Source of the DNA: Aphanomyces cochlioides | Lineage: Eukaryota; Oomycota; Saprolegniomycetes; Saprolegniales; Verrucalvaceae | Assembly: GCA_019828595.1 (NCBI GenBank) | Contig: JAHQRK010000026.1 | Coordinates: 956,635-1,020,634 of the forward strand | Direction of reading: 5' to 3' | Length of the DNA stretch: 64,000 nucleotides | Part shown: piece after piece, positions 26,907-64,000 of the stretch | Layout of the letters: every line of letters begins with the position of its first letter | Numbering within the stretch: the stretch's first letter is position 1 | The notes under the pieces: model-generated | The model's input: only the letters and a program-made list of their open reading frames with translations | Told to the model about the DNA's origin: nothing | Databases searched by the model: none | Made by a program: the position numbers and the translations under genes

Positions 26907-28047
26907 TGGATCCAACCGGAACCGAAGAGGAACACAAGGAAGGATAGTTTGAAATTTGCACGGAGATGGAACACTCTGGGACTGTCTTGCCGCAAGGCAA
27001 TGACGGTCTAGGTGAACCTGAAGAAGCGACAGCCGAGCGAGAATATGGGCCGGAGGAGACAACGCGGACGACGAAGAGAGTTCTGAAGACGGTTCAGCGG
27101 ACAGCTCAGCGGACGGTTCAGACGGCGAAGTCAAGGACATGAGCAATGTCTACATTTCCGAAGACGAAGATGATGACCGCGACCTGGACGAGAAGACGCG
27201 GAAGCACGAGAAGACGCGGAAGCACCTCATGCGGGAGCAGAATCGGATCAACCGAGAACGACGTGAACGTCGCAAGATTGAGAAATATGGACCGAATTTC
27301 CGTCGTGCAGAGTCAGATTCCTCCGCCACATCCCTCAGCGGCGAAGACACCGATGGATACAAGGAGCGTAAGTATCAGAAAGCGCAAGCGAAGAAGGCGG
27401 AGCAAAAGCGCAAGAACAAAGAACTCATGCGACGCAATCAACGAATGTATTCAACCGTGGTTATTACAGATATCAAGCACCCGCGGATCACGAACTTTGA
27501 TCGCAAGTTCCTAGTCGAATGGAAGAAGAAGCGCCTAGAATACGAACGGCTGCTCCGAGATAAGTGTCGACATGTGGGCAATGCGAAGAGTCAGATGGTT
27601 GGATACATCGAGTCCTGCGATCCAAGTCTGCTGCGTGCCATGTGTGAAACGATCTGGTTCGAATCCGACATTACGGAAGAGCGATTGCGTGAGAAGATCG
27701 AGGAGATTCTGAACACACCGTCTCATTCATTTGGAATTACTGAAGCTGACCTAGAGGATTACTGCCACGATCTGCGCATGCCGGCTACAGGCTCGGTTGC
27801 CAGTCGTCTAGGCCTATTCATGATGCAAGTCAACGATGTCATCGACAGATACGCATTGAAGGAAGACCTCGAAGTGAAGGGAAGTCTCAAGATGTTTCTG
27901 AAAGCAGTGGTCTACCGAATCGACCCACCTTTGGACTGTCAAATCTGGTGCGCGATCAGATCAAGCGTGAACCAGTCTCCACGATCGTCGAATTTGCCAA
28001 AGTTGTGCGCGAACAAATGGATCGCATCGAAGCGTCGGACCGACTAG
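26907..28047 (+). pseudogene. Gag, copy 1
   Basis: An ATG at 26907 opens only a short frame before a TAG; the long frame starts at 27139 and runs 302 codons. It is highly charged at first (SEDEDDDRDLDEKTRKHE, basic coiled-coil-like), then contains the capsid-like helical region (SLLRAMCETIWFESDITEE, EADLEDYCHDLRMP, ALKEDLEVKGSLKMFLKA). Near 27930 the natural continuation shifts to another frame (NLVRDQIKREPVSTIVEF) overlapping 27948-28997. The same shift is present in copy 2. No standard slippery heptamer is obvious, so a shared lesion is as likely as programmed frameshifting. Confidence 0.8.
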
Positions 28048-28997
28048 CGCAACAACAAGGCCTGGTCAGCAAGAAGCGGAGCCCGCCGATAGGGTGGACC
28101 AATAGTGATGTCAAACGACGACGAGGAACACCAGTCAAGGTGCATTTTGACAAAGTCACCTGCTGGGGCGACGAAAAGGGAGTCGTGGGGGCCGGAAGCC
28201 AGTATGCTGAAGAGCAAGCGTACGACTTACTCCGCGATCATGAAGAACGCAAGCAGCGCGCAGAAGAAAGACGAAGAGTCTGGGAGAACACGCGCTATAA
28301 CCGAAATTCGGCAAGTCCTGGTCGCCGTGGCCCCGCTGGTGGCTACGGGTCAGGCAACTCGAACTCACCCTTTAGGAACGACAAGTACGGACCCAAGGAC
28401 ACGCAAGCGAGAACAGACAAGCCTGGTTATCGCGAAGGCAACATCGTCTGCTATGCATGTCAGAAGCCGGGACACAAGTCCAACGAGTGCCAGGAAAACA
28501 GTCCGAACTCACAACTCAGAGGGTACCGCAAAGGAAATAATGCGATAAAGCGATTCAAGCGGAACAATACGAAGAAGCAGAATGTCTATCGTGCTTGGCT
28601 AAAGGCAAGAGCCGCTGTGACGAGCGAAACAGAGGAAGAAGAGCGATGGATCGTGCTGAACGATGCGCTTGAAGTGCCCTACTGTCCAGATACCGGCGCC
28701 AACCAGAACATTATTCCAAGACGAATGGTGGACGCACTCATCAAGGAGCGACCAAGCGTGAAGATTGTGACGCTGGCTGAACCTATCAGTGGAACAGGAT
28801 GCAACGACATGCAGTTTGAGACAAAGTGCTACGTCGAACTGAGACTCAGTTTGCAAACAGCAGCGGGAATGGTCAAGATCCCTGGAAGACGAGTGTGCTA
28901 CATTGTTGAAGAAGGCGACGAATTCCTAGCTTCCCACGACACACTCAAATCGATCGGGCTCGATATTGATCGGTGGTTGGAGCAAGTCGCGATTTAG
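27948..28997 (+). pseudogene. Nucleocapsid and aspartic protease, copy 1
   Basis: The frame continues Gag with VSTIVEFAKVVREQMDRIEA, then a zinc knuckle (CYACQKPGHKSNEC at about 28450) and an aspartic protease with YCPDTGANQNIIPRRMV (active-site DTG) and later FLASHDTLKSIGLDIDRW. It ends at a TAG at 28995 that is CAG in copy 2. A further TAG at 29103 is shared by both copies. Confidence 0.85.
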
Positions 28998-29144
28998 CAG
29001 CGTGAAGCGGACGGTGACGATCTGGGCGCTGAGTCTGACGCCGGCATAGTATGTGCGCGGAAGTCGACCAGCGATGTCGAAGAAGAAGAAGACCGCATGT
29101 GGTAGTCGACTCGAAGAGAAGAACACGATGACGACGATACGCGT

Positions 29145-29420
29145 ATGTCTGACCCTAATGGTCATGACGTCGGTATGCGATTGTCTCGTGCGCCGAGTGA
29201 TGACGTCGATACGCGAGTGTCTGGCCCTCGAGGTCATGACGTCGGTAGTCGTATGTCTTGCTCGAAGACTGATGACGTCGATACGCGCAAGTCGGGCCAA
29301 AGCAGTCATGACGGCGGTAGTCGTGTGTCTCGGTGGATGTTTGATGACGCCGGTATGCGCGAGTCGGACCTATGTAGTCAAGATGGCGATACGCGAGTGT
29401 CTCGAACAAGAAACAGACGA
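29145..29420 (+). repeat. 36-bp coding minisatellite, copy 1
   Basis: Seven units of exactly 36 bp, with TGACGTC or a one- to three-base variant at 29165, 29201, 29237, 29273, 29309, 29345 and 29381. They encode alternating 12-residue units, DVGxRxS-xxxx-D and DVDTRxS-xxxx-H, so the true period is 72 bp. The opposite strand is also open across the array. Confidence 0.9.
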
Positions 29421-33036: not shown

Positions 33037-33319
33037 ATGTATACTTTAGTGATAGTGTACCGAGCACCTTTGGTTATCCGGATACGATGGATCCAACCGG
33101 AACCGAAGAGGAACACAAGGAAGGATAGTTTGAAATTTGCACGGAGATGGAACACTCTGGGACTGTCTTGCCGCAAGGCAATGACGGTCTAGGTGAACCT
33201 GAAGAAGCGACAGCCGAGCGAGAATATGGGCCGGAGGAGACAACGCGGACGACGAAGAGAGTTCTGAAGACGGTTCAGCGGACAGCTCAGCGGACGGTTC
33301 AGACGGCGAAGTCAAGGAC

Positions 33320-34227
33320 ATGAGCAATGTCTACATTTCCGAAGACGAAGATGATGACCGCGACCTGGACGAGAAGACGCGGAAGCACGAGAAGACGCGG
33401 AAGCACCTCATGCGGGAGCAGAATCGGATCAACCGAGAACGACGTGAACGTCGCAAGATTGAGAAATATGGACCGAATTTCCGTCGTGCAGAGTCAGATT
33501 CCTCCGCCACATCCCTCAGCGGCGAAGACACCGATGGATACAAGGAGCGTAAGTATCAGAAAGCGCAAGCGAAGAAGGCGGAGCAAAAGCGCAAGAACAA
33601 AGAACTCATGCGACGCAATCAACGAATGTATTCAACCGTGGTTTTACAGATATCAAGCACCCGCGGATCACGAACTTTGATCGCAAGTTCCTAGTCGAAT
33701 GGAAGAAGAAGCGCCTAGAATACGAACGGCTGCTCCGAGATAAGTGTCGACATGTGGGCAATGCGAAGAGTCAGATGGTTGGATACATCGAATCCTGCGA
33801 TCCAAGTCTGCTGCGTGCCATGTGTGAAACGATCTGGTTCGAATCCGACATTACGGAAGAGCGATTGCGTGAGAAGATCGAGGAGATTCTGAACACACCG
33901 TCTCATTCATTTGGAATTACTGAAGCTGACCTAGAGGATTACTGCCACGATCTGCGCATGCCGGCTACAGGCTCGGTTGCCAGTCGTCTAGGCCTATTCA
34001 TGATGCAAGTCAACGATGTCATCGACAGATACGCATTGAAGGAAGACCTCGAAGTGAAGGGAAGTCTCAAGATGTTTCTGAAAGCAGTGGTCTACCGAAT
34101 CGACCCACCTTTGGACTGTCAAATCTGGTGCGCGATCAGATCAAGCGTGAACCAGTCTCCACGATCGTCGAATTTGCCAAAGTTGTGCGCGAACAAATGG
34201 ATCGCATCGAAGCGTCGGACCGACTAG
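33320..34227 (+). pseudogene. Gag, copy 2
   Basis: Same as copy 1 up to about 33640, where one A is missing (GGTTTTACAG against GGTTATTACAG). The frame therefore ends at 33694, and the remaining capsid part is open only from 33754 to 34227 in another frame. The lesion is private to this copy. Confidence 0.85.
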
Positions 34228-35285
34228 CGCAACAACAAGGCCTGGTCAGCAAGAAGCGGAGCCCGCCGATAGGGTGGACCAATAGTGATGTCAAACGACG
34301 ACGAGGAACACCAGTCAAGGTGCATTTTGACAAAGTCACCTGCTGGGGCGACGAAAAGGGAGTCGTGGGGGCCGGAAGCCAGTATGCTGAAGAGCAAGCG
34401 TACGACTTACTCCGCGATCATGAAGAACGCAAGCAGCGCGCAGAAGAAAGACGAAGAGTCTGGGAGAACACGCGCTATAACCGAAATTCGGCAAGTCCTG
34501 GTCGCCGTGGCCCCGCTGGTGGCTACGGGTCAGGCAACTCGAACTCACCCTTTAGGAACGACAAGTACGGACCCAAGGACACGCAAGCGAGAACAGACAA
34601 GCCTGGTTATCGCGAAGGCAACATCGTCTGCTATGCATGTCAGAAGCCGGGACACAAGTCCAACGAGTGCCAGGAAAACAGTCCGAACTCACAACTCAGA
34701 GGGTACCGCAAAGGAAATAATGCGATAAAGCGATTCAAGCGGAACAATACGAAGAAGCAGAATGTCTATCGTGCTTGGCTAAAGGCAAGAGCCGCTGTGA
34801 CGAGCGAAACAGAGGAAGAAGAGCGATGGATCGTGCTGAACGATGCGCTTGAAGTGCCCTACTGTCCAGATACCGGCGCCAACCAGAACATTATTCCAAG
34901 ACGAATGGTGGACGCACTCATCAAGGAGCGACCAAGCGTGAAGATTGTGACGCTGGCTGAACCTATCAGTGGAACAGGATGCAACGACATGCAGTTTGAG
35001 ACAAAGTGCTACGTCGAACTGAGACTCAGTTTGCAAACAGCAGCGGGAATGGTCAAGATCCCTGGAAGACGAGTGTGCTACATTGTTGAAGAAGGCGACG
35101 AATTCCTAGCTTCCCACGACACACTCAAATCGATCGGGCTCGATATTGATCGGTGGTTGGAGCAAGTCGCGATTCAGCAGCGTGAAGCGGACGGTGACGA
35201 TCTGGGTGCTGAGTCTGACGCCGGCATAGTATGTGCGTGGAAGACGACCAGCGATGTCGAAGAAGAAGAAGACCGCATGTGGTAG
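34128..35285 (+). pseudogene. Nucleocapsid and protease, copy 2
   Basis: As copy 1, with the CCHC knuckle near 34630 and the DTG protease near 34870. CAG replaces the copy 1 stop at this point, so the frame runs 385 codons to the shared TAG at 35283, ending in an acidic tail (TTSDVEEEEDRMW). This TAG could be read as a Gag/Pro boundary. Confidence 0.85.
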
Positions 35286-35324
35286 TCGACTCGAAGAGAA
35301 GAACACGATGACGACGATACGCGT

Positions 35325-35600
35325 ATGTCTGACCCTAATGGTCATGACGTCGGTATGCGATTGTCTCGTGCGCCGAGTGATGACGTCGATACGCGAGTGT
35401 CTGGCCCTCGAGGTCATGACGTCGGTAGTCGTATGTCTTGCTCGAAGACTGATGACGTCGATACGCGCAAGTCGGGCCAAAGCAGTCATGACGGCGGTAG
35501 TCGTGTGTCTCGGTGGATGTTTGATGACGCCGGTATGCGCGAGTCGGACCTATGTAGTCAAGATGGCGATACGCGAGTGTCTCGAACAAGAAACAGACGA
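35325..35600 (+). repeat. 36-bp coding minisatellite, copy 2
   Basis: Same seven-unit array as at 29145-29420, offset by 6180 bp, with no difference seen inside the array. Confidence 0.9.
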
Positions 35601-57975: not shown

Positions 57976-58539
57976 TTATATGTTTAATACAATGAATGGT
58001 TTGCGACAGAATGGACAAGGAGGTGGACCTTCGCGGCGACCCAATACGGGATCTCGCCCGTTATGGATTGCTTCGAGTTTAAGAAAGCACTTTTCATGCA
58101 ACTTGTGGTCACATGTCACAGACTGGAGCCACTTTCGTGCGGGGGATTCGCAAATTCCACACCGCTCCAACTTTGGGACATACTTGTTTCTTTTTCTCTC
58201 GGCGTCTTTCCTTTTTGCGACAGCTTTCGCGGCATCTAGACGCTTTTGGCGCAACTCAGGGTCGCGCTTTTCTTTGCACCTGCGTCGCTTCTGATGAACC
58301 TGCAAATTACGCTTGCATGAAAACGTTGAGCGACACTTTTTACAGTAGAATGCACCGTTTGCCTTTTGTGGGGGCAATGGCATATTAATATGACAAGTGT
58401 GGGGGCCCACAAGAAATGACTGGTGATGGCCCCCACTTCCAATCGTTTTGCCCCCACTTTTGGTAAGATGGTCCACTTTTTCTACTGTTATCAAATAGCC
58501 CCCACTTTTGTCAAAAGCCCGAAGGTTTCGTTTGCCCAC
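57976..58539 (-). CDS. C2HC finger plus RING-H2 protein, 187 aa
   Basis: Residues 1-40 contain a KSGG repeat (RAFDKSGGYLITVEKVDHL, TKSGG). A C2HC/C2H2-like finger spans residues 66-88 (YCKKCRSTFSCKRNLQVHQK, RRRC), followed by a strongly basic helix (RQKRLDAAKAVAKRKDAERK). A RING-H2 finger spans 127-178: CGIC, CDHKLHEKC, CPFC with spacing C-x2-C-x12-C-x-H-x2-H-x2-C...C-x2-C. A ubiquitin ligase with nucleic-acid binding is a reasonable inference. The repeat block in its 5' part is shared with 53039-53113, so the start may be at Met53 (58383) and the gene may belong to a mobile family. Confidence 0.6.
   Translation of the reverse strand: MGKRNLRAFDKSGGYLITVEKVDHLTKSGGKTIGSGGHHQSFLVGPHTCHINMPLPPQKANGAFYCKKCRSTFSCKRNLQVHQKRRRCKEKRDPELRQKRLDAAKAVAKRKDAERKRNKYVPKLERCGICESPARKWLQSVTCDHKLHEKCFLKLEAIHNGRDPVLGRREGPPPCPFCRKPFIVLNI
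58448..58522. repeat. KSGG-coding repeat block, copy 2 (inverted)
   Basis: Reverse complement of the block at 53039-53113, with more intact CCCCCACTTTTG words. It forms the N-terminal coding part of the C2HC/RING ORF. Confidence 0.85.
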
Positions 58540-59585
58540 CTAAAGTCGTGAAGAACACTGCCGGCTACTGTCGTGTGACAAGCTGAACCCTCAACCTTGT
58601 TCCAGTGGTACTCAGCTAGTCAGGACAACTTTTTGAGATTGTTGGCATTCGCGTGAGATTTCATGTTTCCCGCACGGCATTATTGAACTGCAATGCACGG
58701 AAGTATTAGTAAGGAAAGCGGGCTAGTTAGCGTTCTCTAGCAGGGTTGGGAAGGCTGTCGGAGCTGCATTTGTCAAGGTTGACCTGTCTTCGCCTCATGC
58801 ATTTTTCAAAATTTATATCAGGGTATTATGATTGGAAATATTATGTTTCAAAGGTTTATTCTATTAATATTACTTACTGTCAAAATGAATATGCCAAATA
58901 AAATAATATTATACAGGATATAAGTTTGGAGTGGGAGGCGAAAACTGGGGGACTCTGTGTGTTGGTAACACACAGCCTGCGCAACAGATACTGCACCGAC
59001 AATATGGTTCGTCGCTGTTTTGGTCGGCCTTCACCCTAGTATGGGTGCGGAAAGGATAACATGATTGATAAAACACTACATGCACCACAGATGGCCACGA
59101 TGGCCACGCGGAACGCCACGATAGAGCTTGCTTCATTCCCGGAGGAGAAGCAGTGTTTGGCGGAGTAATCCGAGCTGCAAATCGCCATAACTTTTCCCAG
59201 CTACAGTACGTCAGTTCTTAGTTGATGATGTGGACAGATTCAATTCTGGGATTCGCCAACGCAATGGAGGATACTGCTCATAAACTGAAAAGTGCCGAAT
59301 CGACCGTCGACGCGGGTACACGACAGCCTCGGGAAATCTTAAACAGTAGCCAGAGGCGCTGTCGCTAGAACTCGTTCGTTTGACGCGACAGCAACTCAGT
59401 CGAGCAAGCGAAGTTGATGGTTTGTGTTGAGAGTGAAAGTGTTGCGAAAAGAGCTCATGCACCGTGCAAATTACTACCTGCAACGTATACCAACTTCAGT
59501 CATGCAGAGTTCAACGTAACAGATTGGCGTCAGCGTTTCCAGTGTGGCGATGCTGGACTCAGAGTTCGATCTAATGAATTGATAA
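58540..59585. other. No recognised gene
   Basis: Short ORFs only (58909-59136 and 59211-59483 on minus), one with a few cysteines (CRCSICCAGC) but no complete finger. No replication-protein motif was found here. Confidence 0.4.
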
Positions 59586-59612
59586 CCCCCAAACCCCCAA
59601 ACCGCCAAACGA
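59583..59612. promoter_or_regulatory. CCCCCAAA tract upstream of capsid-like gene
   Basis: TAACCCCCAAACCCCCAAAC, then CGCCAAACG, lies 13-40 bp before the ATG at 59625. The motif is the complement of the terminal TTTGGGGG repeat and resembles tracts upstream of other intact genes. Regulatory function is inferred. Confidence 0.4.
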
Positions 59613-59624
59613 ACTAGGGAAATT

Positions 59625-60668
59625 ATGATAGAACAGCTACGAAAGCAAGGCAAGTTGCGTGGAAGTGGTCCTAATGTTATCCCCCCTGATAATGCTGGCA
59701 CAAGTGATGATGTCGATATGGCCCCTATTGGAGAAGGCGAACCTCGACCTCGTATCGATAACCCGCACGTTGACCCTGTTCCTCCTGACGACGGTGGCAT
59801 CTCTGCTGGTGTTGCTTTATTTGCATCCTCTGGAAGAGGTGGACGAACCGATGGTTCTGAATCAAGTGTGGACCCCTTTCGACATTGGATGTATCGACCA
59901 TACACTGAAACCCAAAACTCTATCCTGCCTTATCGATACATTGGAAGTGGAACCTGTGTTGTTCCCTCTGGTGCGAACGCTGCATCCCAAGTGTCAAGCT
60001 ATTCGTTTCGACTCAATTCTCCCTACGATATCCTCACTACAACGACTTACTCTGCTGACCCTGCACCTGCTGCTGATACTGCGGATGGAACTGTTCAAAC
60101 TGCTCAAATGTTCACCTTTTGGTCTGCTCTCTATCGATATTGGACTGTTGTTGCTTGCCACTACAACGTACATGTTTGGCTTAATGATCAAGGCAATGAC
60201 CAAGAAATGAGTGTATGGATATACCACAATGGTCAACAACAACCTCCTTTGATTGCTGATGCAAGCAATGTTGTTACGGATCTTGCAAGGGAAACGCATA
60301 GACACACTCATCTGAAGACACTACGCCTGGATCGAACCGATACTGGCAAGTCTATTTACAACGGAGGCATTCATTTCAGTGGAGAGTATCGTCCTGGCAA
60401 CTACACTGTTCACAACGATGTCGCCGAAGACGAATACAAAGAAACATGGCATCGTACAACAGAAGTACCAAGTCTACGTGAAGTATGCACTGTCATTGTC
60501 AACCGCAGTGACCGTCAACGAGCTATCTATGCTGGTTCTGATGTTACATTTCGATATGTCCTAGAAATCACGTACAAAGTGCAATGGAAGGACTTGAAGG
60601 CAGACTTTCAATACCCTACTCAACTTACAGACTTCTCTGCTATCACGGATGCAATTGGCATTGCTTAA
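59625..60668 (+). CDS. Capsid-like protein (CRESS-DNA-virus type), 347 aa
   Basis: Intact frame. Residues 1-80 are disordered, Pro/Gly/Asp-rich. From about 90 the sequence has the cadence of a single-jelly-roll capsid: NSILPYRYIGSGTCVVPS, SYSFRLNSPYDILTTTT, MFTFWSALYRYWTVVACHYN, HVWLNDQGNDQEMSVWIY, then HFSGEYRPGNYTVHNDV and a C-terminal VTFRYVLEITYKVQWKDL. In small circular Rep-encoding ssDNA viruses capsids carry very similar SFRLNSPYD / YxxYxVxxCxYxVxxW / ITYYVQF-like strands. Unlike most of them the N-terminus is not basic; the next ORF is. No lesion is present. Alternative: an unrelated beta-rich cellular protein. Confidence 0.6.
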   Translation: MIEQLRKQGKLRGSGPNVIPPDNAGTSDDVDMAPIGEGEPRPRIDNPHVDPVPPDDGGISAGVALFASSGRGGRTDGSESSVDPFRHWMYRPYTETQNSILPYRYIGSGTCVVPSGANAASQVSSYSFRLNSPYDILTTTTYSADPAPAADTADGTVQTAQMFTFWSALYRYWTVVACHYNVHVWLNDQGNDQEMSVWIYHNGQQQPPLIADASNVVTDLARETHRHTHLKTLRLDRTDTGKSIYNGGIHFSGEYRPGNYTVHNDVAEDEYKETWHRTTEVPSLREVCTVIVNRSDRQRAIYAGSDVTFRYVLEITYKVQWKDLKADFQYPTQLTDFSAITDAIGIA

Positions 60669-60687
60669 TCATTTTTCAATATACATT

Positions 60688-60861
60688 ATGGTGTCTACAC
60701 GTTCTCGCAGAGGAAGACCTTTGCCTGCGCCTAGACGCCCTAGAGCCCAAGGGCCACAGTATGCACCACGCGACGAATGCAAGCGCCATAGATTGCCTGA
60801 CAGAAAAGCAAAGTCCATACAAGTCACAACATACAGAAGAAGACCTGTAATTAGACGTTAA
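60688..60861 (+). CDS. 57-aa arginine-rich protein
   Basis: Starts 19 bp after the capsid-like stop. The sequence is Arg/Pro-rich throughout (MVSTRSRRGRPLPAPRRPRA, KAKSIQVTTYRRRPVIRR), much like the basic, DNA-binding N-terminus of CRESS-virus capsids but as a separate frame. It ends at 60861, directly abutting the stop of the opposite-strand ORF. Likely a small nucleic-acid-binding or nuclear-entry protein of the same cassette; this is inference from composition and position. Confidence 0.5.
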   Translation: MVSTRSRRGRPLPAPRRPRAQGPQYAPRDECKRHRLPDRKAKSIQVTTYRRRPVIRR

Positions 60862-61341
60862 CTAACTGTCATCTGGGTTCTCTACATCTTCAGTACTCGA
60901 AAGACCGCTATCGCTATCTGAATCGTCTTCAAGAGGAGCGAAAAACGACTCTGGGATGGCACGCATGACAACTTTGGCATTATTGGCACTGGCAATGGCT
61001 TGAAACCGCTTGTTCTGGAGGTTGACAGATCTTGCAAGTCGAATAGCTGAGTGTTTCTTCATAGATTCGCGGTTCTTCTTGTATCTTGACACTGCCAATT
61101 CCATTCGCAAACGTGCAACTTCTTGTCTTGCTTGGGCCAATTCTTGCTCGCAATCCGTCAACATGTTTTGGTAGTATCATGCCGTGGCTGTCTTCGATTT
61201 CGCCATCTTGTCAATCAGCCTTGACTTGTTTCCGAGTTCTTCTTGCAGCGCAGAGTTTTCCTTCATCAAATAGTCCCCAAGGGGGCCAACGACTATGGAC
61301 CAGGCGTTTCTTGAAATGGGTCTTGTGGGTGCTGTCGGCAT
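60862..61341 (-). CDS. Coiled-coil protein with one in-frame TGA
   Basis: From an ATG at 61341 the frame gives AWSIVVGPLGDYLMKENSAL then QEELGNKSRLIDKMAKSKTA, a TGA at 61177-61179, and from an ATG at 61164 a 100-aa tail: QELAQARQEVARLRMELAVS (heptad-like coiled coil), a basic stretch and an acidic Ser-rich end (PLEDDSDSDSGLSSTEDVEN). The TGA may be a lesion, a readthrough site or the boundary of two ORFs. Leu-zipper plus basic composition recalls bZIP-like regulators but no clear bZIP basic region is seen. Confidence 0.45.
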
Positions 61342-61644
61342 GGTAATTTGAGAAATGATTTAGTGGAAGATAAGTACGGTTAGAACTTCCATACGGTTGT
61401 GACCTTTGGCAACAGTCGTCCGGTTGTTTATTCCATTCCGGATAACCTGTATAAATAAATACTTCCATGGATATCCCCCAATATAAGATGGAGAAGGAGA
61501 CGTTACACGGCTCATTCTTCTAAGTCCATAGTATAGGGGGGTAAGGTACAGTCACTGTACACTTGGCAGTACAGTGAATTGGATACTTTGTGTTGCAAAC
61601 GTATTGTAAAAATTTACAGTACATATTGTGGCGAGCCCTAGTCC
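61342..61644. other. No recognised gene
   Basis: Contains TACAGTCACTGTA-type short palindromes near 61548-61580 and a G-run (ATAGGGGGGTAAGG). No viral origin nonanucleotide in a stem-loop could be identified. Confidence 0.35.
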
Positions 61645-61934
61645 TTATGCATACTCGACAACATGGATGCCTGCATGTGATAGGGGGCACTGGGTCAGTT
61701 ATTTGTAGAAGACAAATGGCAAACATTTCGTGCTTTTCATCGCTCTGGTGTTGTCAGCGTGAGCGGCGGCTTTTCTTCGATGATCGCGCGCTCATCGAAG
61801 CGCCGCATTCTCTTTTGCACGAGCCAAAACTTCCTCACGCGTCAGACACCTCGACGATCTCTTATAACGCGCCGCATTCTTTACAAACATGCACGCGTTG
61901 CACCGAGGGCAACTGTACTCCTTCGACTGCATGA
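61645..61934 (-). pseudogene. RING-like zinc-finger relic, copy 2
   Basis: On the minus strand the ATG at 61934 opens MQSKEYSCPRCNACMFVKNA, with a zinc-ribbon-like CPRCNAC absent from copy 1, then KRSSRCLTREEVLARAKENA and a TGA near 61797. Downstream, in other frames, ITDPVPPITCRHPCCRVCI retains the RING His. Damage is complementary to copy 1 at 5055-5387. Confidence 0.6.
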
Positions 61935-62051
61935 TGAGTGACCAATTTACTGCAGACCAACATCATTATCCGGAAAGCTAATTTTCGTTATCAACTTGCA
62001 AAAAAGAACTTGGTACCATATAGCAGCATTTCATTTTTATAGGGCACCATT
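61645..62051. repeat. Diverged duplication, copy 2 (partner 5142-5550)
   Basis: Same orientation as copy 1; see that entry for shared words. It lies between the capsid-like cassette and the subtelomeric repeats. Confidence 0.8.
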
Positions 62052-62928
62052 TGTGGCCGCGTAAATTAAATTCAGTCTTATTGCCAGTTGGGTGCCATTT
62101 GAGTTAGATATATAGTGTTATTTTCCACTATTCTAGCTATGTTTTCCCGCTCGAATCTCCCCAAACAGTGCTCTGGTCGCCGAGATATGAGGCTTCAAAG
62201 CTGGTGGTCCGACTTTTCCGACAAAATTTGAGGTTTGAGTTTTTGGTATCGTTCAACTCGTCTCAGCGACACCAATGTTGCTGTATAATTCAATTGAGCA
62301 ATTCGGTCTTCATTTTGAGTTATTAATAAAAAGCTGGAGTGTAATATGTAGTATAAAACTGTTTCAAACAAGAATACTATAACTAATGACATATATGTTG
62401 TAAACTAGTTGATGCTTTCCCAAAACTGTTTTTTAGTTTTCTCGAAACTCAGAATTTTCACCAATTTCCCATCAACATACTTTGCACCTCAATTTCTCGA
62501 AAATTGGTACCTGGTTGATAAGACTGGTTTTTATTTACGCGGCTTCATTTAGCAACGGCCTCATTCAGCAAGAAGCAATCTTCTGAAAGTTAAGCTAATA
62601 CGTCAAAATGCTTAAATTCTGAAATTAGCTAGTAGGTAAAAATGCATATAATTGAAGAGACGACGACAAATGCCCATTCTCTCTGAAAAGATTTGAGCTC
62701 TTCGGATCTAAAGAGATCACCCCAAACCACCACTCTTTCCCTCTTATTACCCAATCTACATCTCGGTGGCCGACACTTTTGAACGTCGCTGCTACTTATG
62801 CAAAACCGTCAATGCACAGTACATGTACTGTAACAGTTTTTCAAAAGGAAGCAAATTCAAGAAGGAATTAAATCATCTTAGACTCCTGCAAACTTGAATG
62901 TTTCGTGTTGACGATAGCCTTAATCGTC
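62052..62928. other. No recognised gene, AT-rich
   Basis: Only a 65-codon ORF (62195-62392, minus) with a hydrophobic stretch (LVIVFLFETVLYYILHSSFL) is present. The word CATTTAGCAACG (62548) recalls the end of the 5142-5550 repeat (CATTTAGCAACGAC). Confidence 0.35.
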
Positions 62929-62970
62929 GTTTGGGGGTTTGGGGGTAAGCAGGGAGAGGCGACGGGACCA

Positions 62971-63104
62971 CGCGAGCGAAGCGAGCTTTGTCACAAAGGG
63001 GTGAATTAAAAATTAACGCTACAACTACGGAGCGAAGCGACCACGCGCTTTAGCGCGTCACGCCCGAAGGGCGTCCGGAGGGTCTGGGAGGCGGAGCCTC
63101 CCAG
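62971..63104. repeat. Cluster of GC-rich mini-hairpins
   Basis: GAGCGAAGCGA occurs twice (62974-62984 and 63030-63040). Then come three perfect hairpins in a row: ACGCGCT-TT-AGCGCGT (63043-63058), ACGCCC-GAA-GGGCGT (63060-63074) and CTGGGAGGC-GGA-GCCTCCCAG (63084-63104). The dense array of GNA-looped short stems is unlike the AT-rich surroundings and more like intergenic hairpins of some organelle, phage or large-virus genomes. Confidence 0.85.
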
Positions 63105-63406
63105 GGCTCGTTTTAATTGGTTGTAGGCACTTGTAATCTAATTTCATTGGTCCTTTCGTTTGCCTTCTTCAGTGTGAGTTATGTCGCTGATTGTGCAAGC
63201 ATGAAGTGACTGAGGGGATCAGTTAGTCAGTTCAGAAGCTTGCCAGCTTTATCCGGATATCCGGATAAGGGGGATTTGGGGGCCCCGGGGGGATTTTCGG
63301 GGGCCCCTGGGGGGATTTCCATGGGGGAAGTTCCTTGGGGAGGAAGTTCCATGGAAGTTTGGGGTTTAGGGGTTTCGGGGTTGGGGGTTTCGGGGGTTGG
63401 TGGTTT

Positions 63407-63456
63407 CACCCCGACACCTGTACTAGTTGTCGAGTAGACTAGCAGGTGTCGGGGTG
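63407..63456. repeat. 14-bp inverted repeat with 22-nt spacer
   Basis: CACCCCGACACCTG (63407-63420) and CAGGTGTCGGGGTG (63443-63456), separated by a spacer holding ACTAG twice. It could be a termini pair or a cruciform in the G-rich subtelomeric stretch. Confidence 0.85.
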
Positions 63457-63659
63457 GTGTCTAGTTTGAGTCGAGATGGACTAAGTTTAGACTTTAAGGT
63501 TGGTGGTTTGAGATAGCATATTGCTATGCGATCTACCCCGATTTGTCGTAGACCTTCTTTATATGAATCAAAGTATAATAGTCTCTTCAATTCGTGAGAA
63601 GAAGGCCCGTTTGGATTATACGGAACTTTATAGTATATGACTTTCTCATGTGCTTTTGG

Positions 63660-64000
63660 TTTGGGGGTTTGGGGGTTTGGGGGTTTGGGGGTTTTGGGGG
63701 TTTGGGGGTTTGGGGGTTTGGGGGTTTGGGGGTTTGGGGGTTTGGGGGTTTGGGGGTTTGGGGGTTTGGGGGTTTGGGGGTTTGGGGGTTTGGGGGTTTG
63801 GGGGTTTGGGGGTTTGGGGGTTTGGGGGTTTGGGGGTTTGGGGGTTTGGGGGTTTGGGGGTTTGGGGGTTTGGGGGTTTGGGGTTTGGGGGTTTGGGGGT
63901 TTGGGGTTGGGGGTTTGGGGGTTTGGGGGTTTGGGGGTTTGGGGGTTTGGGGGTTTGGGGGTTTGGGGGTTTGGGGGTTTGGGGGTTTGGGGGTTTGGGG
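63660..64000. repeat. (TTTGGGGG)n terminal array, candidate telomere
   Basis: About 42 head-to-tail copies of TTTGGGGG run to the edge of the window, with rare variants lacking or adding a base (TTTTGGGGG, TTTGGGG). The G-rich strand points outward, as at a right-hand chromosome end. Short interstitial copies occur at 62929-62945. Known oomycete telomeres are TTTAGGG-like, so the unit is unusual. A plain G-rich microsatellite at a contig end is the alternative. Confidence 0.7.

Follow-up and report, generated by a model that had tools for sequence, protein, structure and literature searches.

Near the end of a contig of the root-rot oomycete Aphanomyces cochlioides lies a compact cassette of capsid and small accessory genes which very probably is an endogenous viral element, corresponding to the right-hand part of a linear single-stranded DNA (ssDNA) virus of the parvovirus-like hybrid virus (PHV) group (Oomyviridae). 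The window, by which we mean the whole stretch of 64,000 nucleotides that was analysed, constitutes the last 64 kb of contig JAHQRK010000026.1 (C19; 1,020,634 bp) in an assembly of 76.2 Mb and 94 contigs, and coordinates without a contig name refer to this window. According to an account of the International Committee on Taxonomy of Viruses (ICTV), Oomyviridae and Lineavirales were created for 'parvovirus-like hybrid' viruses, which have linear ssDNA and likely Stramenopile hosts (PMC12451638), a host group to which A. cochlioides, as an oomycete, belongs. The cassette is a new endogenous member of this family, which was ratified in 2025, and no title among the literature matches listed reports parvo-like hybrid viruses in Aphanomyces. 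The original prediction, made from the DNA letters alone, had proposed that the capsid module of an ssDNA virus is integrated in the subtelomere of an oomycete; capsid homologues, a fold match to a PHV and the telomeric context all agree with it.

The first gene of the cassette is a 5'-truncated capsid gene of 347 aa on the plus strand (59625..60668). Its open reading frame (ORF) contains zero internal stops, as had been predicted, and is far longer than chance would give: when the local 5.6 kb was shuffled 300 times by mononucleotide, the longest ATG-initiated ORF reached 195 aa (mean 102). We found 34 homologues, 33 of them on contigs of 0.8 to 3.8 kb, and the most similar one, with 60% identity, also lies on a short contig. 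The best viral fold match of the predicted structure is the capsid of Grus japonensis parvo-like hybrid virus (E 1.1e-25), presumably one of the 38 species that ICTV places in Oomyviridae, and the PDB fold matches are headed by circoviruses. Structure prediction and fold search thus recovered the capsid folds foreseen, and on the strength of this model the ORF is a predicted jelly-roll capsid protein. Cruciviridae, Bacilladnaviridae and Naryaviridae are not named among the 50 viral fold matches listed, these families not having been tested separately. For the window capsid, neither Pfam (E≤1) nor PHROGs gave a family, sequence comparison with PDB gave only matches with E above 1 and tblastn in phage records gave no result. 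A PLA2-like domain, listed for 9 of the 34 homologues, was not seen in the truncated window protein.

Capsid and/or replication protein (Rep) sequence is present at seven loci of the A. cochlioides genome, on contigs of 1.0 to 5.0 Mb and in varied states of decay: the window on C19, one locus each on C56 (3,361,283 bp), C34 (3,994,282 bp), C3 and C5, and two on C1 (5,046,973 bp). C56 carries two head-to-head copies, each with a 397-aa Rep, an 86-aa ORF, a 360-aa capsid and a 57-aa ORF, in a palindrome spanning C56:6050-15024 at 99.2% identity. Rep sequence occurs on C56, C1, C5 and C3, and together with a capsid only on C56 and at one C1 locus; searching the genome for Rep gave no match in the window, consistent with the earlier remark that no Rep gene lay nearby. 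Identity between the window capsid and its counterparts elsewhere in the genome does not exceed 55% (near-full matches 48-55%), and the C34 and C56 capsids share 91% identity. Compared with C56, the window capsid is shorter at its 5' side (347 vs 360 aa) and the separate upstream 86-aa ORF is absent.

The Rep of C56 ties these copies to named PHVs, being 61% identical to the Grus virus Rep as well as to an A. astaci protein, and 66% identical to an A. euteiches protein. Its model (mean predicted local distance difference test score, pLDDT, 86.7) matches circovirus Rep nuclease domains, a circovirus Rep ATPase and Rep68 of adeno-associated virus. The Parvo_NS1 family (PF01057) is not listed for the C56 Rep; it is listed for 8 among the 120 Rep homologues listed of 965, and exceeds the cut-off (24.7 vs 20) in L054, a genome-length relative described below. 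In a Rep tree made as a quick search, a supported clade of 15 rows unites C56, C1, C5 and A. euteiches with 11 others; A. astaci is placed outside it. Moreover, when the sizes of short contigs were compared between 33 capsid entries and 114 of the 120 Rep rows listed of 965 (leaving out four rows on long eukaryote contigs and two without size), 10 sizes between 2.9 and 3.8 kb were common to both lists, vs 1.6 expected and a maximum of 6 in 1000 jittered trials. These shared sizes fit capsid and Rep residing on the same small molecules, although contigs of equal size need not be identical.

In the capsid tree, the window belongs to a supported 9-row clade with short-contig sequences, and C34, C56 and C1 to a different supported 8-row clade, so that at least two virus lineages were captured. 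When the window capsid was compared with C56 and 12 of the other homologues, its residues 1-90 were closer to C56 (55, 55 and 68% by segment) than to those 12, and its residues 90-347 were closer to homologue P0002 (54-62%) than to C56 (46-49%). This pattern suggests an apparently mosaic capsid, in which a jelly-roll module may have been exchanged between viruses sharing a host.

No more than 15 kb separates four of the seven loci (C19, C56, C34 and C3) from a contig end (binomial 6e-5); for the two on C1 and the one on C5 the distance is greater. This figure is to be read with the knowledge that the 15-kb threshold was picked after the loci had been seen, that all 188 contig ends were counted as telomeric and that the C34 and C56 loci, given their similar capsids, may not be independent.

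The second gene of the cassette, encoding a 57-aa arginine-rich protein with a CxRHR core motif (60688..60861, plus strand), begins 19 bases after the capsid stop, exactly as had been foreseen. Matches with 69-86% identity are found at five places (C56 twice, C34, and C1 twice), next to an additional 63% fragment on C56, so that this gene is better conserved between the window and its sister loci than the near-full capsids with their 48-55%. A profile of the protein retrieved 13 further homologues out of 16 candidates, all 13 of which keep CxRHR. The homologue in L054 (39.6 bits, E 1.4e-13 in a six-sequence search) covers only profile positions 20-56, including the C-terminal motif. Alignment-based searches of IMG/VR with the arginine-rich protein, the capsid and Rep, as well as one with the capsid itself, gave pattern matches, among which no relative was confirmed.

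It had been proposed that this ORF is the basic arm of a capsid that has become separate. The charges agree with that proposal to some extent, as the protein has a net charge of +16 vs -4 for window capsid residues 1-73 (range -4 to +5 among 14 capsids including that of the window). The L054 homologue, however, has a net charge of -7 and yet keeps the motif, which makes a role in pure charge unlikely. Judged from these sequences, the protein is probably conserved for its motif and not for charge alone, and the ORF appears to be an independent gene, not a charged arm that has come loose from the capsid. It may have a specific partner, the simplest candidates being the capsid and, during packaging, the genome, a guess which could equally well prove right or wrong. 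The 19-base gap in the window and the one-base overlap with the capsid end in L054 suggest that translation of both genes may be coupled.

The third gene lies on the minus strand and ends at 60862, its stop codon abutting that of the arginine-rich gene with zero bases between. This contact had been noticed before; the single ORF described up to 61341, on the other hand, did not hold, since an in-frame stop (61177-61179) splits it into an N-terminal part of 54 aa (61177..61341) and a C-terminal part of 100 aa with an acidic tail (60862..61164). The coiled coil attributed to it finds an echo only in a sub-threshold Pfam match to TACC_C (16.4 bits vs a cut-off of 29.9). The 100-aa part has a 73% match on C34 and 47% matches at two places on C1, where the break is identical in both copies of a direct repeat. 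An intron or programmed frameshift joining the two ORFs was considered by eye and set aside: the gene is broken at different points in the window, on C34 and on C1, as is more readily expected from separate decay.

The uninterrupted capsid and arginine-rich frames beside this broken gene would be expected if the capsid, perhaps with the arginine-rich protein, had been domesticated for a cellular role or for antiviral interference, as the original prediction had entertained. We consider this improbable, as the capsid has been trimmed at the telomeric junction and no orthologue was found, the closest capsid being the short-contig one mentioned above. Furthermore, decay has progressed to many different degrees among the other copies, and on C56 four ORFs are just as clean; an intact frame may therefore reflect youth only and needs no special explanation. 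The broken antisense gene and the capsid 5' end, shorter than in C56, equally fail to support domestication.

That the cassette derives from a linear genome is suggested by the ends of its relatives. L054 (JAKKUQ010000096.1; 3952 bp), the sole relative out of 99 pattern matches in a prokaryote genome collection, carries Rep, a PLA2-capsid, the small arginine-motif ORF and a minus-strand ORF at the left genome end with a coiled-coil look by eye, and has at both ends the same 186-nt inverted repeat, itself a perfect palindrome. It was binned inside a bacterial metagenome-assembled genome of Thermosediminibacteraceae, probably through a binning error. Strong hairpins are likewise predicted at the corresponding positions of C56 (z -19.3, 51-bp stack), C1 (z -14.6, 39-bp stack) and C34 (z -10.1). 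In the window, a remnant of the viral terminal repeat, where the viral stretch ends, was identified at 61489..61552 (about 90% identity to C56 and 97% to C34), 56 bases of which (61497-61552) match the C34 terminal element with one mismatch; Rfam gave 0 matches in the window. The right end of the C1 copy lies inside its hairpin and the C34 copy ends just past one, so that the window, C1 and C34 copies all end on the right at the viral terminus, as would follow from the joining of linear ends to breaks. Side by side with this, we observed that the two copies on C56 (L013, 4900-5150) are joined via a terminal hairpin and a second, partial hairpin, an arrangement that resembles the ligation of two molecule ends.

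The terminal-repeat remnant, together with the uninterrupted Rep ORF elsewhere in the genome, might also be taken to mean that the element can still be mobilised from the chromosome end with Rep supplied in trans by sister copies such as C56. This is very improbable, since only a single, truncated terminal repeat is left, which folds unlike that of C56, the left end is a telomeric junction and the other capsid copies of the genome are no more than 55% identical.

At this left junction, the viral stretch starts at most about 15 bases from a 27-base run of interstitial telomeric repeats (59584..59610, minus strand, the C-rich strand being read on the plus strand), and similarity to the C56 capsid region begins within 59608-59625. 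In mammals, telomeric repeats have been described as being inserted during double-strand break repair (PMC7215372), and by analogy similar repair may have produced this junction. On the right, the viral terminal repeat passes with a 5-base overlap into host repeat DNA (61548..62928), partly shared with a site that lies 11 kb inside the end of C14 and containing an element resembling a miniature inverted-repeat transposable element (approximately 62049-62548; about 500 bp, with 26-bp inverted ends and seven further near-full-length genome copies at 88-96%). The telomeric repeats at 59584 and 62930, inverted relative to each other, might have bounded a minichromosome capped by telomeres, an idea that we rejected given this host repeat DNA.

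Further towards the end follow interstitial telomeric repeats (62930..62945, plus strand, G-rich), a fragment of a subtelomeric repeat (62946..63650, minus strand; 98.7-99.7% identical to three C56 copies) with a 582-aa reverse transcriptase (RT)-like ORF on C56, and the terminal array of 8-bp TTTGGGGG repeats in which C19 terminates (63658..64000, plus strand). The RT-like repeat recurs near chromosome ends (C56 1270-6061, C3 1418-9072 and window 62946-63650), with copies also at the left end of C3, and frequently adjoins telomeric repeats. It may be Penelope-like, although neither Pfam nor PDB gave a sequence match for the 582-aa ORF; when the genome was searched for PF00078, with 150 of 1804 candidates scored, the repeat did not appear among the places listed. 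The TTTGGGGG unit also caps C1, C3, C34 and C56; as the usual oomycete unit is TTTAGGG, it may be a lineage-specific change. C3 also contains, about 2.1 kb inward of its terminal array, a long stretch of interstitial telomeric repeats that runs from 2470 to at least 2706, and a small ORF in a repeat element inside C34 gave no Pfam family.

Taken as an endogenous PHV, the cassette would have originated from a virus whose Rep, with HUH-nuclease and SF3-helicase folds as in its relatives, replicated the linear genome, the identical terminal hairpins being nicked and refolded in the process, whose capsid protein built the shell and whose arginine-rich protein may have served as a minor structural or genome-handling protein. 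The right end, within the former hairpin stem, would then have joined host repeat DNA at the 5-base overlap, and the left end telomeric repeats, as in break repair capturing or adding telomere sequence, leaving a non-replicating, decaying relic beyond which the RT-like repeat fragment and the present telomere would follow. A broader scenario, tentative and as a whole rather unlikely, is that oomyvirids are recurrently fixed at oomycete chromosome ends through capture of hairpin genomes at eroded or broken telomeres, and that they swap jelly-roll modules while keeping the capsid arm, the terminal repeat and a CxRHR gene working with the capsid.

Several observations weigh against this reconstruction. 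The window itself contains no Rep and only one degraded terminal repeat, so that replication mode and linearity are deduced from relatives, and its capsid model has a mean pLDDT of 75.8. Folding at the ends is weak for the stretch tested in the window (z -4.6, arising from other pairings) and at the C1 right end (z -1.1, with 28 of 200 shuffles equally good), on the left neither the window copy nor the C1 copy ends in a viral terminus, and the perfection of the L054 palindromes could partly be an assembly effect. The L054 antisense ORF lies at the opposite genome end and has no sequence similarity to that of the window. Finally, the head-to-tail direct repeat on C1, with its period of 3453 bp, would fit a circular genome too; the C56 head-to-head pair and the L054 ends fit a linear one, in the light of which we regard a circular genome as less likely. 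Independently of this question, the 833-bp C1 repeats (L011, 1879-2711 and 5332-6164; 99.4% identical, 3453 bp apart) could serve to date the C1 insertion.

PHVs were initially proposed as a hepatitis candidate and later traced to silica columns. A 2026 letter regards most PHV sequences as reagent artefacts and advises that, as long as no definitive hosts are known, they be flagged as probable artefacts (PMC13141889), and reagent-borne virus DNA misjoined to the contig would be an explanation in that spirit, yet a most improbable one given seven loci of varied decay on large contigs, flanked by telomeric and host repeats in the window and lying beside repeat elements elsewhere, and related proteins on record for A. 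astaci and A. euteiches. In this one oomycete genome, chromosomal copies from at least two lineages are decaying, which is direct evidence that an oomycete was infected in the past, and these A. cochlioides fossils, which preserve genome ends and highlight a conserved small gene, support oomycetes as real PHV hosts. As an endogenous viral element the object itself is ordinary, the virus group being recently recognised and contested; its most interesting extras are the conserved small gene, the fossil terminal hairpins, the apparently mosaic capsid and the subtelomeric bias (4/7).

Elsewhere in the window, matching tandem-repeat blocks at 27088-29404 and 33269-35584, about 6.18 kb apart, suggest a tandem duplication, and a 135-aa ORF (57976-58383, minus strand) contains a C3HC4 RING finger barely over the Pfam cut-off (22.2 vs 21).

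Among known systems, the cassette most directly compares with Oomyviridae (including NIH-CQV/PHV), with which it shares a homologous capsid, a sister-copy Rep 61% identical to that of a named PHV, a relative with identical palindromic ends and a Stramenopile host, and from which it differs in being chromosomal and lacking Rep, the left half and PLA2. A plant virome study of 2022 describes PHV genomes with two major ORFs (PMC9703751), whereas a small third gene is conserved here. Parvoviridae resemble the group in hairpin ends, in the PLA2-like domain of some relatives' capsids and in PF01057 in some Rep relatives and L054, but the Rep here is approximately 390-400 aa, the PDB capsid matches are headed by circoviruses and the window copy has no PLA2. 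With Circoviridae and other circular Rep-encoding ssDNA (CRESS) viruses, likeness lies in these top capsid matches and in the Rep nuclease and ATPase folds, whereas L054 looks linear and the window capsid has no basic arm. Endogenous CRESS and parvoviral elements of eukaryotes are likewise partial, decaying integrated copies; what sets the A. cochlioides copies apart is that four of the seven loci lie within 15 kb of contig ends.
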